This document shows, one piece after another, positions 5,569 to 54,485 of a stretch of 64,000 bases of DNA. The first letter of the stretch is position 1. Each line of letters opens with the position of its first letter. Source of the DNA: Candidatus Gastranaerophilales bacterium. GTDB lineage: Bacteria > Cyanobacteriota > Vampirovibrionia > Gastranaerophilales > Gastranaerophilaceae. The position numbers and the translations under genes were made by a program. The stretch spans positions 1 to 64,000 of the forward strand of contig CALVBU010000011.1 in the NCBI GenBank assembly GCA_944325875.1, read 5' to 3'. Below the pieces are notes generated by a model that made no database searches, was not told where the DNA came from, and was given only the letters and a program-made list of their open reading frames with translations.

Positions 5569-5604
5569 AATGAAAAGAGGCTTTTTATAAGCCTCTTTTC
5601 ATTT
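5569..5604. terminator. Terminator after eno
   Basis: 13-bp inverted repeat AATGAAAAGAGGC / GCCTCTTTTCATT with a 9-nt loop. The T tail is short, so efficiency is uncertain. Its right edge touches the -35 box of the first leader promoter. Confidence 0.65.
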
Positions 5605-5631
5605 GAAAAAATAAAATAAATATGGTATAAT
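5603..5631 (+). promoter_or_regulatory. Promoter of poly-G leader copy 1
   Basis: TTGAAA (5603-5608), exactly 17 bp, then TATAAT (5626-5631) preceded by TGG, an extended -10. The predicted start is near 5638, just before the leader RBS AGGAGG at 5641-5646. The same TTG-N17-TATAAT architecture recurs in front of the other two leader copies. Confidence 0.8.
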
Positions 5632-5650
5632 GGATAAAAAAGGAGGACGT

Positions 5651-5701
5651 ATGCAAAAAGCAATTATAGAGAGAATTTCGGGGGGGGGGGCTACCAACTA
5701 A
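5651..5701 (+). CDS. Poly-G leader ORF copy 1, 11 G (short frame)
   Basis: Strong RBS (AGGAGG, 4 nt spacing) and ATG start a short ORF, MQKAIIERISGGGATN, in which an 11-G run (5680-5690) encodes the glycines and the frame stops at TAA 5699-5701. Adding one G would open the frame YQLTVRISIFDLDLRLKEAS to a TGA at 5752-5754, for a total of 34 aa, the same length as the intact 12-G copy at 6607-6711. The sequence thus looks like a phase-off allele of a 34-codon leader. Between copies the post-tract codon changes are mostly non-synonymous, so whether the peptide or only its translation matters is open. No family recognised. Confidence 0.5.
   Translation: MQKAIIERISGGGATN
5680..5690 (+). repeat. 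G homopolymer, 11 nt
   Basis: Eleven consecutive G in an otherwise AT-rich region, inside leader ORF copy 1. A run of this length is a typical slipped-strand mispairing site, and the copy at 6636-6647 has 12 G. Confidence 0.9.
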
Positions 5702-5729
5702 CAGTTAGGATAAGCATTTTCGACTTAGA

Positions 5730-5736
5730 CCTCCGA
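5730..5736 (+). promoter_or_regulatory. Conserved anti-Shine-Dalgarno element CCTCCGA, copy 1
   Basis: CCTCCG is the exact complement of CGGAGG at 5826-5831, the RBS of the downstream prepilin gene. CCTCCGA can also pair with TCGGGGG at the 5' edge of the G tract (one G-U pair) and partly with the leader RBS AGGAGG. The element is conserved in all three leader copies. Confidence 0.5.
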
Positions 5737-5762
5737 TTGAAAGAAGCAAGCTGAAGATTAAG

Positions 5763-5788
5763 CCGTGCCAAGTGACACGGTGATTTTT
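5763..5788 (+). terminator. Leader hairpin terminator, copy 1
   Basis: CCGTG / CACGG stem with an 8-nt loop, then five T after a TGA spacer. Present in all three leader copies at the same place, between leader ORF and prepilin gene. The stem is short, so a conditional (attenuator) function is as likely as constitutive termination. Confidence 0.55.
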
Positions 5789-5799
5789 GGTGTAAAAAA

Positions 5800-5808
5800 T
5801 GTTAAAAT
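5800..5808 (+). promoter_or_regulatory. Extended -10 of prepilin gene 1
   Basis: TGTTAAAAT, an extended -10 without a clear -35, lies 27 nt before the ATG at 5836. The same motif at the same 27-nt spacing precedes 6791 and 53817, and a relative (TGTTATAGT) precedes 20230, so these genes may have their own promoter independent of the leader. Confidence 0.5.
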
Positions 5809-5835
5809 AAAAAATAGTATACAAACGGAGGATTT

Positions 5836-6474
5836 ATGAAAAAGAGAAATGCTTTTACATTAGCAGAAGTATTAATAACTTTAGGAATAATCGGGATAGT
5901 AGCTGCAATGACAATGCCGATGCTTATAGCAAAGCATCGAAAAAGTGTTGTTGAAACCAGATTAAAAAAAATTTATTCTTCCATGAATCAAGCGATAAAT
6001 TTATCAGAAACGGTTAATGGTGACAAAATAACTTGGACCGAAATAGTTTCAAATCATGAAGAATGTAGGGATAATTTAGAAAGTGATGGGTGTCGGTTAT
6101 ATTTTTTTAACACATATTTAAAAGATTACTTAAAATATCTAAAATATGAGTCTGTTGGGACTAGCGGACTTGTAATTTATCTTGCTGATGGTTCTGCTCT
6201 TCGGATGAAACATCCATTTGATTATTATTTTTATCCTAACGGGTATACAAAAACTTTGTCAGAAGTCAAAGGTAAGAATGTATTTCCCTTTCATATAGCT
6301 GTTTCTTCTTGGGTTCCTGATTGCGTAAAAAAAGAACTTAAAAATAATAGTTTTGAACCTTACCTTGATGGGTATTGGGATTGTACTTCTGAAGGATTGT
6401 ATACATCTCCATATTACAGTACAAAATTAATTCAACATAATGGTTGGAAAATTCCAGATGATTATCCTTGGTAG
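5836..6474 (+). CDS. Type IV prepilin-like protein, poly-G-led subfamily member 1
   Basis: 212-aa secreted or surface protein with a class III prepilin signal: short basic leader MKKRNA, then FTLAEVLITLGIIGIV with Glu at mature position 5 and a hydrophobic helix of about 20 residues ending in MPMLI. The residue before the cleavage point is Ala rather than the usual Gly. The globular part is variable and Cys-containing, and ends GWKIPDDYPW, a C-terminal motif shared only with the other two poly-G-led prepilins (6791, 53817). The first 60 coding bases are nearly identical to those of 6791. RBS CGGAGG is the exact complement of CCTCCG in the leader. It needs a prepilin peptidase and assembly machinery encoded elsewhere; whether it is a true pilin, pseudopilin or minor pilin is unknown. 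Confidence 0.88.
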   Translation: MKKRNAFTLAEVLITLGIIGIVAAMTMPMLIAKHRKSVVETRLKKIYSSMNQAINLSETVNGDKITWTEIVSNHEECRDNLESDGCRLYFFNTYLKDYLKYLKYESVGTSGLVIYLADGSALRMKHPFDYYFYPNGYTKTLSEVKGKNVFPFHIAVSSWVPDCVKKELKNNSFEPYLDGYWDCTSEGLYTSPYYSTKLIQHNGWKIPDDYPW

Positions 6475-6549: not shown

Positions 6550-6578
6550 TTGCAGAATATTATTAAATTTGATATAAT
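6550..6578 (+). promoter_or_regulatory. Promoter of poly-G leader copy 2
   Basis: TTGCAG (6550-6555), 17 bp, TATAAT (6573-6578). The predicted start is about 10 nt before the leader RBS AAGGAGG (6596-6602). Confidence 0.8.
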
Positions 6579-6606: not shown

Positions 6607-6711
6607 ATGCAAAAAGCAATTATAGAGAGAATTTCGGGGGGGGGGGGCTACCAACTAACAGTTGAGAAAAGCATTTCCGGTTTAGACCTCCGATTTGAAG
6701 AAAAGAGCTAA
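6607..6711 (+). CDS. Poly-G leader ORF copy 2, 12 G (open 34-aa frame)
   Basis: 34-aa ORF with strong RBS: MQKAIIERISGGGGYQLTV followed by EKSISGLDLRFEEKS and TAA at 6709-6711. The 12-G run (6636-6647) encodes the four glycines. The frame closes 7 nt before the terminator-like hairpin at 6719, so a ribosome finishing the leader would cover the hairpin's 5' arm. The other two copies (11 G) would restore the same frame with one more G. No database family recognised. It may be a small protein, a regulatory leader peptide, or an incidental frame in a conserved RNA. The length match with the restored copy 1 frame (34 aa) argues for a real frame, the non-synonymous divergence after the tract against strong peptide selection. 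Confidence 0.55.
   Translation: MQKAIIERISGGGGYQLTVEKSISGLDLRFEEKS
6636..6647 (+). repeat. G homopolymer, 12 nt
   Basis: Twelve consecutive G, one longer than copies 1 and 3. The extra G puts the downstream 20 codons in frame with the leader ATG. Confidence 0.9.
6687..6693 (+). promoter_or_regulatory. Conserved anti-Shine-Dalgarno element CCTCCGA, copy 2
   Basis: Complementary to CGGAGG at 6781-6786 (prepilin RBS) and to the TCGGGGG edge of the G tract, as in copy 1. Confidence 0.5.
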
Positions 6712-6718
6712 AAACAAA

Positions 6719-6744
6719 CCGTGCCAAGTGACACGGCGATTTTT
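6719..6744 (+). terminator. Leader hairpin terminator, copy 2
   Basis: CCGTG / CACGG stem with loop CCAAGTGA, then CGATTTTT. Same loop as copy 1. Confidence 0.55.
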
Positions 6745-6763: not shown

Positions 6764-6790
6764 AGACAATAGTATACGAACGGAGGATTT

Positions 6791-7465
6791 ATGAAAAAGA
6801 GGAATGCTTTTACATTAGCAGAAGTATTAATAACTTTAGGAATAATCGGTATTGTGGTTGCAATGACGCTGCCTATAATAATAGCAAATGGAAAAAAACA
6901 AGAAACGGTATCTCGGTTGAAAAAATTCAATAGCATGATACTTCAAGCTATTTTGTTATCGCAAAATGATAATGGACCTTGCGAATATTGGCAGAAAGAG
7001 AGTATGCCAACGAATGATGATGGTTCTTACGATACGGCAAAAGGTTCTATGCAGGCAGAGGAATTTTTCAACAAGTATTTTGCTTCATATATAAAGTATA
7101 TTCGTTTGGATAATTCTAATGAATGTAGTTCAGCATTAAGACTGGTATTTAATGATGGTTCAACTGCTTGTTTAAAAAATGGTGGTCTGTTTGATTTTTA
7201 TTATGATATAAATGGAGCTAAAAAGCCTAATAAAGGCGGTTATGACAGATTTTATTATTCGTTTACTATTTCAAAATCCAGTTCGTTTTATCAAACTACA
7301 AGACGATATTTTGCACCTTTTATAAATTATATGAATCAGGAAATGTGGAGTGATCGAGAAGAATTAAAAGAGTTATGTGCTACAGGTGGGGAATCAGGTG
7401 CATGCGCTAGATTGATTGAGATAGATGGGTGGCAGATAAAAGATGATTATCCTTTTCATTTTTGA
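6791..7465 (+). CDS. Type IV prepilin-like protein, poly-G-led subfamily member 2
   Basis: 224-aa prepilin-like protein: leader MKKRNA, cleavage before FTLAEVLITLGIIGIV (Ala at -1, Glu at +5), then an alpha-helical stalk and a variable head. The head includes FYYDINGAKKPNKGGYDRF, the D-x-NG...P-N/D-K..GYDRF signature also seen at 53817, and ends GWQIKDDYPFHF. The 5' coding sequence is almost identical to 5836 for 60 nt while the rest diverges, consistent with cassette duplication and gene conversion. RBS CGGAGG 5 nt from ATG. A bidirectional terminator follows. Function as pilin or pseudopilin is from family knowledge; the specific role is unknown. Confidence 0.88.
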   Translation: MKKRNAFTLAEVLITLGIIGIVVAMTLPIIIANGKKQETVSRLKKFNSMILQAILLSQNDNGPCEYWQKESMPTNDDGSYDTAKGSMQAEEFFNKYFASYIKYIRLDNSNECSSALRLVFNDGSTACLKNGGLFDFYYDINGAKKPNKGGYDRFYYSFTISKSSSFYQTTRRYFAPFINYMNQEMWSDREELKELCATGGESGACARLIEIDGWQIKDDYPFHF

Positions 7466-20032: not shown

Positions 20033-20190
20033 ACATAATTCATAATAAATATGTATATCAAAGCCGTGATTTTGTTTCAGTTTTGGAAAAGTAATTTTAA
20101 ACAAAAGGATTGGAAGATATTTTGAGTTATATATAGTACTGAATAAAGCTGCTATAACTATAAACATGGAATTTTTGAATATTATAAAAG

Positions 20191-20199
20191 TGTTATAGT
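20191..20199 (+). promoter_or_regulatory. Extended -10 of prepilin gene at 20230
   Basis: TGTTATAGT followed by AATAGTATATAA, resembling the conserved TGTTAAAAT...AATAGTATA block before the three poly-G-led prepilins. No poly-G leader precedes this gene. Confidence 0.5.
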
Positions 20200-20229
20200 A
20201 AAGAATAGTATATAAGTGGAAAGGATATT

Positions 20230-20895
20230 ATGAAAAATAAAAATGCATTTACGTTGGCCGAAGTTTTAATTACCCTTGGAATAATTGGTGTTGTTGCGGC
20301 AATGACGTTACCCATACTTGTAAATAATTATCAAAAGAAAGTGTATGAAACTGCTTATGCAAAAAGTGTTAATACTATATTAAATGCGCATAAAAAACTA
20401 CTTGCAGATGCTGAACAATTTTCTTTATGTGATTTAGAAGATTTTGAATGTAATAAACAAAATAGTTTAGATGGGATTTCAATAAGAGATGGGCATCTTG
20501 ATTCTTATATGAAAAAACTTGGATTTGAAAAAAAGAAAGTTGATTTAGGAGTAATGAGGGAAAACTTTGAAGAAGCTTATGTTTCAAAGGACGGTATGTG
20601 TTATTATCCATATAGTCTTTTTACAACAACTCATAATTCCGGTGGTCCTACTTACGAAATATTTGTTGATACAAATTGTGCAAAAAATCCAAATCAAGGT
20701 GGCCGTGATCAATTTTTTATTGTTATGAATGAGCAATTAAAGTTAGCTTTAGATGTAACTGATGATGAAGAAGAAATTGCAGAACAATGTTTTACACTCG
20801 TTAATACAAAACCTGTCAGTTTGGCTTCTTCGGCATACGGTGGAATATATTGCGGCTCGTACTTAATAAATAATTCTTACAAAATGGATTATTAA
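20230..20895 (+). CDS. Type IV prepilin-like protein (Ala-type signal, no poly-G leader)
   Basis: 221-aa prepilin-like protein. Leader MKNKNA, cleavage before FTLAEVLITLGIIGVV (Ala at -1, Glu at +5). The stalk YETAYAKSVNTILNAHKKL differs from the other copies. The head contains IFVDTNCAKNPNQGGRDQFF, with Cys in place of the Gly of the D-x-NG signature, and ends KMDY without a GW..DYP motif. RBS GGAAAGG. Its promoter block resembles that of the poly-G-led genes, but the leader is absent, making it a useful contrast. Confidence 0.87.
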   Translation: MKNKNAFTLAEVLITLGIIGVVAAMTLPILVNNYQKKVYETAYAKSVNTILNAHKKLLADAEQFSLCDLEDFECNKQNSLDGISIRDGHLDSYMKKLGFEKKKVDLGVMRENFEEAYVSKDGMCYYPYSLFTTTHNSGGPTYEIFVDTNCAKNPNQGGRDQFFIVMNEQLKLALDVTDDEEEIAEQCFTLVNTKPVSLASSAYGGIYCGSYLINNSYKMDY

Positions 20896-53569: not shown

Positions 53570-53598
53570 TTGAAAAACTTTGAAAGATAATTTATAAT
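53570..53598 (+). promoter_or_regulatory. Promoter of poly-G leader copy 3
   Basis: TTGAAA (53570-53575), 17 bp, TATAAT (53593-53598), about 20 nt before the leader RBS AAGGAGG (53619-53625). Confidence 0.8.
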
Positions 53599-53630: not shown

Positions 53631-53681
53631 ATGCAAAAAGCAAATATAGATAGAATTTCGGGGGGGGGGGCTACCAACTAA
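53631..53681 (+). CDS. Poly-G leader ORF copy 3, 11 G (short frame)
   Basis: RBS AAGGAGG, then MQKANIDRISGGGATN and TAA at 53679-53681; the 11-G run is at 53660-53670. One more G would extend the frame 41 aa (YQLTIGISISDLNLR...) to a TAG at 53753-53755, which lies in the loop of the terminator hairpin, so a translating ribosome would melt the stem. A 1-nt difference near 53720-53730 makes this frame run past the stop position used by copies 1 and 2. About 46 kb from the other two copies, again immediately before a prepilin gene. Confidence 0.5.
   Translation: MQKANIDRISGGGATN
53660..53670 (+). repeat. G homopolymer, 11 nt
   Basis: Eleven consecutive G in leader copy 3, same context TTTCG(G)nCTACCAAC as the other copies. 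Confidence 0.9.
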
Positions 53682-53709: not shown

Positions 53710-53716
53710 CCTCCGA
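53710..53716 (+). promoter_or_regulatory. Conserved anti-Shine-Dalgarno element CCTCCGA, copy 3
   Basis: Complementary to CGGAGG at 53807-53812 (prepilin RBS) and to the TCGGGGG edge of the G tract. Confidence 0.5.
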
Positions 53717-53743: not shown

Positions 53744-53769
53744 CCGTGCCAATAGACACGGTGATTTTT
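53744..53769 (+). terminator. Leader hairpin terminator, copy 3
   Basis: Same CCGTG / CACGG stem; the loop reads CCAATAGA in place of CCAAGTGA, so the stem is kept while the loop varies. Confidence 0.55.
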
Positions 53770-53789: not shown

Positions 53790-53816
53790 AAGAAATAGTA
53801 TATAAACGGAGGATTT

Positions 53817-54485
53817 ATGAAAAAGAAAAACGCATTTACTTTGGCAGAAGTGCTGATAACATTAGGAATAATTGGGATAGTCGCAGCAATGACATTGCCG
53901 ACATTGATTGCAAACTATAAAAGACAAGAATATTCCACTCGAATTAAGAAATTTTACAGTACACTTTCTCAGGCTATCATACGCTCAGAAGTAGATAATG
54001 GATCTGCTGTTTATTGGACAAAAGCTGATCAATTAAAAAATGATGAAGGTAAAGTTGATTATGGTGCAAATGCAGATTGGAACAAGGCTTTTGTTGAGAA
54101 GTATATTTTACCGTATTTAAAATATGTTAATGCAGGTATAAAAAAATGGGATGGTAATAATAATTATGAAACAATTGTGCTTACAGACGGGTCTGAATTT
54201 ATGTTACATAATGGTGATTGTATTGACATTATATATGATATGAATGGGCTTGGAAAATCTCCTGATAAAGATGGTTATGATAGGTTTCGTTTTTTAATGT
54301 GTTTTAATGATACTAAAAGAAATTCATTTTTTGGAAATAAGAGCAAATTTTTTGGAGCTTATGGGCGTTGTGTCAATAGAGATACAGCTTTAACAAATTG
54401 TAAAAATGATCCTATTAGGTGTTCAGTACTTTTAGAATGTGATGGATGGGAATTTAAAGAGGATTATCCTCATAAATTATGGTAA
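53817..54485 (+). CDS. Type IV prepilin-like protein, poly-G-led subfamily member 3
   Basis: 222-aa prepilin-like protein. Leader MKKKNA, cleavage before FTLAEVLITLGIIGIV (Ala -1, Glu +5), stalk IKKFYSTLSQAIIRSEVDNG; head with VYWTKADQL (also in 6791 as EYWQKES), IIYDMNGLGKSPDKDGYDRF, and C-terminus GWEFKEDYPHKLW. The signature and ending group it with 5836 and 6791. RBS CGGAGG complementary to the leader element. Four or more Cys in the last 60 residues, likely disulfides. Confidence 0.88.
   Translation: MKKKNAFTLAEVLITLGIIGIVAAMTLPTLIANYKRQEYSTRIKKFYSTLSQAIIRSEVDNGSAVYWTKADQLKNDEGKVDYGANADWNKAFVEKYILPYLKYVNAGIKKWDGNNNYETIVLTDGSEFMLHNGDCIDIIYDMNGLGKSPDKDGYDRFRFLMCFNDTKRNSFFGNKSKFFGAYGRCVNRDTALTNCKNDPIRCSVLLECDGWEFKEDYPHKLW

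Follow-up and report, generated by a model that had tools for sequence, protein, structure and literature searches.

A candidate poly-G slippage switch in a leader ORF shared by prepilin genes of Gastranaerophilaceae

Why does a leader with a long tract of Gs recur in front of prepilin genes, and what might the tract do there? The question is raised by the window analyzed here, a stretch of 64,000 nucleotides from a Candidatus Gastranaerophilales bacterium. A preliminary description of this DNA reported three copies of a block composed of a promoter, a strong ribosome binding site (RBS), ATGCAAAAAGCA, a G run, CTACCAACTAACA, AAGCATTT, CCTCCGA and a CCGTG/CACGG hairpin. All of these parts are present in the three blocks, with runs of G11, G12 and G11, and the spacing of 27 nt between TAAAAT and the prepilin ATG is identical in all three. 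What had been missed is that the G run sits inside a short open reading frame (ORF), with an in-frame stop 8 nt past the run. Each of the prepilins directly downstream scores above the cut-off of PF07963, the prepilin N-terminal methylation motif. The parts are as follows, with the basis of the assignment in parentheses.

5603..5631, + strand: copy 1 promoter, TTGAAA-N17-TATAAT (promoter scan)
5642..5646, + strand: copy 1 leader RBS, GGAGG (direct sequence reading)
5651..5701, + strand: copy 1 leader ORF in the present G11 frame, MQKAIIERISGGGATN and stop (sequence reading and frame analysis)
5680..5690, + strand: copy 1 G11 run
5730..5735, + strand: copy 1 CCTCCG, putative anti-RBS motif (invariant in 39 copies; predicted pairing with the prepilin RBS)
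5752..5754, + strand: copy 1 stop of the frame opened by one added G (frame analysis)
5763..5780, + strand: copy 1 hairpin CCGTG/CACGG, terminator-like
5826..5831, + strand: copy 1 prepilin RBS, CGGAGG
5836..6474, + strand: prepilin 1, N_methyl and DUF6613 (domain search)
6550..6578, + strand: copy 2 promoter, TTGCAG-N17-TATAAT (direct sequence reading)
6607..6711, + strand: copy 2 leader ORF in the long frame (G12), MQKAIIERISGGGGYQLTVEKSISGLDLRFEEKS and stop (frame analysis)
6636..6647, + strand: copy 2 G12 run
6687..6692, + strand: copy 2 CCTCCG
6719..6736, + strand: copy 2 hairpin
6781..6786, + strand: copy 2 prepilin RBS, CGGAGG
6791..7465, + strand: prepilin 2, N_methyl (domain search)
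53570..53598, + strand: copy 3 promoter, TTGAAA-N17-TATAAT (direct sequence reading)
53631..53681, + strand: copy 3 leader ORF in the present G11 frame
53660..53670, + strand: copy 3 G11 run
53710..53715, + strand: copy 3 CCTCCG
53744..53761, + strand: copy 3 hairpin
53807..53812, + strand: copy 3 prepilin RBS, CGGAGG
53817..54485, + strand: prepilin 3, N_methyl and DUF6613 (domain search)

The orthologue of copy 2 in a congeneric genome (G011) has G11, versus G12 in the window. Elsewhere in the window a prepilin without a leader (20186-20307) nevertheless keeps a TGTTATAGTAAAGAATAGTATATAA-type sequence immediately upstream.

Recurrence and conservation of the leader

The genome to which the window belongs (G000) comprises 2.2 Mb on 41 contigs. 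A DNA search of it returned 40 places, with E values down to 1e-78 excluding the query itself, and 39 of these are full copies; the count of three is right for the window and far too low for the genome. The block recurs far beyond chance. A prepilin ATG, usually MKKRNAFTLAEVLITLGIIG, lies 138-151 nt past the G run in all 39 full copies and the arrangement recurs in related species, which strongly supports the proposal that the block has a function tied to prepilin genes. With a covariance model we found 39 copies in this genome, 69 in G011 and one to seven in each of six other congeners. The search of related genomes that the preliminary description had proposed thus gave many matches, and the scatter unrelated to prepilins that it had named as counter-evidence is absent in the window's clade. 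A looser pattern (ATGCA, 18-26 nt, G9) matched 55 of 191 Gastranaerophilaceae genomes, representing 21 of 41 genera, and one of 22 genomes from other families of the order, while its reversed control was near-empty in most genomes. The named matches were mostly Gastranaerophilales or otherwise uncultured MAGs, one being Candidatus Scatousia excrementigallinarum, and the single match in Hymenobacter looks like chance. The element is widespread in Gastranaerophilaceae.

Within the genome of the window, the distance from the leader ATG to the pure G run is exactly 29 nt in 37 of the 38 copies having a start codon, the exception combining 28 nt with G12. The run itself has 11 Gs in 32 of these copies, 12 in five and 10 in one. 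The G11 leader translates as MQKxxIxRISGGGAT(N/D) and stop, and even diverged copies retain the stop at +8 (CTTCTAA, CTTCCTAA). Codons 4-5 vary freely and the glycine codons are almost always GGG; therefore it is the homopolymer, not the peptide, that is conserved, and we rejected the idea of a leader peptide conserved for its own sequence. Addition of one G opens a frame that passes through CCTCC (+39) and ends either just before the hairpin or past it. The frame through CCTCC is the other alternative one in a few diverged copies. Nearly all copies in the window's clade have one alternative frame open through this motif. CCTCCG is invariant in all 39 copies, and a TTG...TAnnnT-like promoter is found at the same place in 36.

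Other parts of the block proved less general. The extended -10 noted before the prepilin is present as TGTTAAAAT in 20 of the 39 copies, and a scan gave no good -35. Five or more Ts follow the hairpin in 19 copies and are missing from the rest; since half of the copies do not have a five-T run, a strong intrinsic terminator was rejected for the window's clade. Covarying stems had also been anticipated; none were seen within the 39 copies, because the pairs hardly vary among them. At the Rfam gathering score a tRNA was the sole match within the window and nothing credible fell on the leader, and a known riboswitch or sRNA family was rejected on this basis.

Of the 48 tracts of at least nine Gs in the genome, 39 belong to the leaders, seven more precede prepilins, and the remaining two lie in a Stealth gene and at an RgpF-type gene. 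The Stealth gene (capsule phosphotransferase-type) carries G11 in its N-terminal part (L331, G000:C3:111732) and the RgpF-type gene has G12 upstream (L338, G000:C14:26681), both displaced from the frame by a single G. Glycan genes of these two kinds belong to typical phase-variable classes. Matches to PF07963 number 116 in the 2.2 Mb, far above the need of one pilus system, and about 70 of them are without a G-run leader.

Several loci stand apart. At L025 (G000:C10:23046) an intact leader is followed by a prepilin cut to 50 codons, an apparent pseudogene. In genome G357 a membrane-protein ORF resembling an acyltransferase by eye, a candidate for surface modification, has an in-frame G13 tract at its start (L341). 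Related leaders with a promoter, an RBS and G14-22 occur in G031 (L215-L234), often beside REP-like repeats; because these tracts mostly do not precede prepilins and often lie at contig ends, they were excluded from the argument.

Reading frames across the G run

Two forms of the leader can be distinguished. In the detached form, that of the window's clade, the leader ends about 80-135 nt upstream of a prepilin that starts from an RBS and ATG of its own. In relatives (the fused form) the prepilin ORF has no start but that of the G-run leader, to which it is fused, usually out of frame. Among 96 fused loci from many genomes, one G fewer is needed to reach the prepilin in 65, the leader is in frame in 16, and one more G is needed in 15. 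Further tracts from eight genomes gave a similar picture, with 19 of about 25 prepilin tracts needing one G fewer; two of these tracts overlap the 96-locus set. In genome G060, all of the fetched G tracts (30/30) lie before prepilins, and in each case one frame continues without a stop past the run and into the prepilin.

The unproductive frames of the fused loci end close to the run, the median distance to the stop being 10 nt in the extra-G frame versus 24.5 nt in the third frame. Moreover, in the set with a stop at +5 the TAA/TAG is constant amid variable bases, the preceding five positions, which argues that the frame with one G too many is really used. Close paralogues within genome G005 display all three frame states, and at one of its loci (L154, G005:C42:14200-17500) two tandem prepilins have identical leader flanks with G12 and G10. 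Of 140 leader-like sequences, from loci many of which had been collected by their run, 139 have a run with no interruption; the sole leader with an interrupted run is L173 (G011:C13), which reads GGGGGAGGGGG.

Taken together, the frame statistics, the tandem G12/G10 pair, the locations of the tracts and the purity of the run fit slippage-controlled contingency loci. In the fused loci the length of a homopolymer sets the frame, with the other frames ending nearby, and the genes concerned build surface structures, 46 of the 48 tracts of the window's genome preceding prepilins and the other two belonging to the Stealth and RgpF-type genes. A slippage switch in the fused form is well supported. 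There the leader would extend the prepilin at its N terminus: with the correct count of Gs translation would continue in frame into FTLAEVLITLGIIG, and with any other count it would soon meet a stop. The preliminary description had regarded the layout as being of an undescribed kind; the architecture is indeed unusual, but the evidence points to a leader ORF with homopolymer slippage, which is a known kind of switch.

How the detached leader may act, and the alternatives

The leader is real, widespread and very probably functional. The reading that we favor, and consider somewhat more probable than not, is that the G run is a slippage switch in a leader ORF, that each genome holds dozens of prepilin contingency loci of this type, and that in the detached form the switch traps the RBS of the prepilin. 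CCTCCG is complementary to the prepilin RBS, (C/T)GGAGG, in all but a few of the 39 copies, so that a leader ORF is combined with a segment complementary to a downstream RBS, as in an attenuator. With G11, a ribosome on the leader would halt 8 nt past the run, leaving CCUCCG free to pair with the prepilin RBS CGGAGG; we infer that this short frame is the off state. With G12, ribosomes would continue through CCUCCG towards the hairpin, loosening the pairing (on), and their read-through may also disturb the weak terminator-like hairpin. The switch would thereby act on translation of the next gene, or on termination, probably by exposing or sequestering the site where ribosomes bind the prepilin message (CCUCCG:CGGAGG).

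Modeling and sequence comparison bear on this scheme. When 82 leaders were folded with a ribosome mask, the mean unpaired probability of the prepilin RBS was 0.13 without a ribosome, 0.04 when a ribosome stood at the early stop, 0.20 when it stood at the late one and 0.59 with CCTCC blocked; moving the ribosome from the early to the late stop thus changes the prediction only modestly. In 16 divergent loci the anti-RBS matched its own prepilin RBS better than permuted pairs (18.7 versus 17.4, p = 0.016), suggesting some covariation that is visible only at this divergence; L054, with TTTGGAGGAA/TTTCTCCAAA, and L166, with a match of 12 bp, are examples. In fused loci the anti-RBS matched the leader's own RBS slightly better than permuted pairs (13.4 versus 12.86, sd 0.22), and pairing between these two is suggestive only. 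The detached leaders of G005, whose frames were read by hand, have a terminator-like hairpin in place of the anti-RBS; here one tract length would let the ribosome overrun the hairpin.

Against a slippage switch, run length in the window's clade hardly departs from 11, including in orthologues of two species (~90% identity), unlike a freely switching tract. Where the spacer is 28 nt, both species compensate with G12. Divergence is greater in the leaders than in their own flanks, and the best match of a leader is often at another locus. In single consensus assemblies, the kind of genome compared throughout, no length variation within a population was seen, and we infer that tract length may change in living populations. 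The constant length speaks for selection on the frame, homogenization of leaders by recombination, or slippage at the RNA level.

The last of these, programmed slippage of RNA polymerase or the ribosome, is unlikely but the most serious rival. The DNA would stay one G off, a set minority of products would reach the long frame or the fused prepilin, and the stop beside the run would fix the default; such slippage at a set rate, which we likewise doubt, would yield each of dozens of prepilins in a cell in a small, constant amount and place that stop under selection. The constant length and the frame compensation at one locus in the window's clade would be expected, as would the displacement of about two thirds of the fused loci by the same single G and the apparent selection on the adjacent stop (constant TAA/TAG, short median distance). 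However, about a third of the fused loci either need no shift or need one in the opposite direction, the sign of the shift is reversed between fused leaders (one fewer) and detached leaders of the window (one more), and tracts are also found in glycan genes, as contingency loci predict. A ribosome-sensing attenuator with a single frame, in which ribosome speed over the GGG codons decides whether CCUCCG pairs with the G run or the prepilin RBS, is quite improbable. The consensus fold does pair the G run with AGCnUUU and CCUCCG, CCTCCG and its neighbors are invariant, and the length and stop of the leader ORF are conserved. Interruptions of the run would be tolerable both for pairing and for glycine codons, yet they are almost absent, and such a device explains neither the fused loci, where only a frame change reaches the prepilin, nor the open alternative frame of nearly all detached copies.

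It is still less probable that the leader is a recombination element as in Neisseria pilE, with exchange of prepilin cassettes initiated by a G4 or R-loop in its transcribed G run. Comparison, among leader-bearing prepilins, of L022, L023 and L028 with L171, L174 and L172 of G011, respectively, revealed orthologous flanks on both sides and replacement in place of the variable part of the prepilin, other loci combine one upstream flank with a prepilin from elsewhere, and the promoter is directed into the run, whose Gs lie on the non-template strand. Ordinary exchange between conserved 5' regions could give the same result, however; a single G11 is too short for the usual three-layer intramolecular quadruplex, an intramolecular G4 motif of four G tracts with loops is not present in the leader (one continuous run, mostly of 11 Gs), and the frame statistics of the fused genes are left unexplained. 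Least probable of all, and very unlikely in absolute terms, is a functionless repeat, a relic of the fused form that spreads with prepilins in the window's clade. Such a relic would fit prepilins that own an RBS and ATG and leaders that are homogenized between loci, but not the persistence of CCTCCG, hairpin, stop and pure G run in diverged copies and species.

Significance and relation to known systems

If the slippage switch is real, 30-70 genes per genome, mostly encoding type IV prepilins, would be slippage-controlled in a gut lineage of non-photosynthetic cyanobacteria that is uncultured yet widespread; in the literature searched we found no description of slippage control at this number of genes per genome. 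Many such prepilins will appear broken or start-less in automatic annotation. Homopolymer-switched surface genes are already known, whereas the RBS-trapping detached form would be new and unusual, a homopolymer acting through a leader that opens or hides the next ribosome site while leaving the protein unaltered.

With the leader-peptide attenuators of erm and cat genes the element shares a short upstream ORF, a hairpin and a segment able to pair with a downstream RBS, but its control element would be a slippage-prone homopolymer and it has no Rfam match. We know of no contingency locus in Neisseria or Campylobacter with a shared leader that includes an anti-RBS and a hairpin. Those loci likewise place poly-G in surface genes, including pilus and glycan genes, with tract length setting the frame (PMC5084427, PMC539331), although their lengths vary more than the lengths recorded here, which come from consensus assemblies. 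The G4 of Neisseria gonorrhoeae pilE (PMC3547852, PMC10094033) is also a G-rich element with a promoter near pilin genes and is associated with pilin exchange between loci; there, a single interrupted G4 motif serves one expressed locus and silent copies, whereas here dozens of complete genes each have a leader ORF that contains a plain G11.

Among described systems the closest is the poly-G pilus switch of Bifidobacterium breve, another gut commensal, in which replication slippage switches sortase-dependent pili (PMC9187656). Its tract of 9-12 Gs is near the start of the pilus gene, and a short first ORF is joined to the rest of the gene at one tract length and ends by itself at others. Bifidobacterium has one or two such clusters of sortase pili per genome, in contrast to the 30-70 type IV prepilin loci with a shared leader found here, and the detached form, with its tract outside the pilin ORF, sets the present system further apart.
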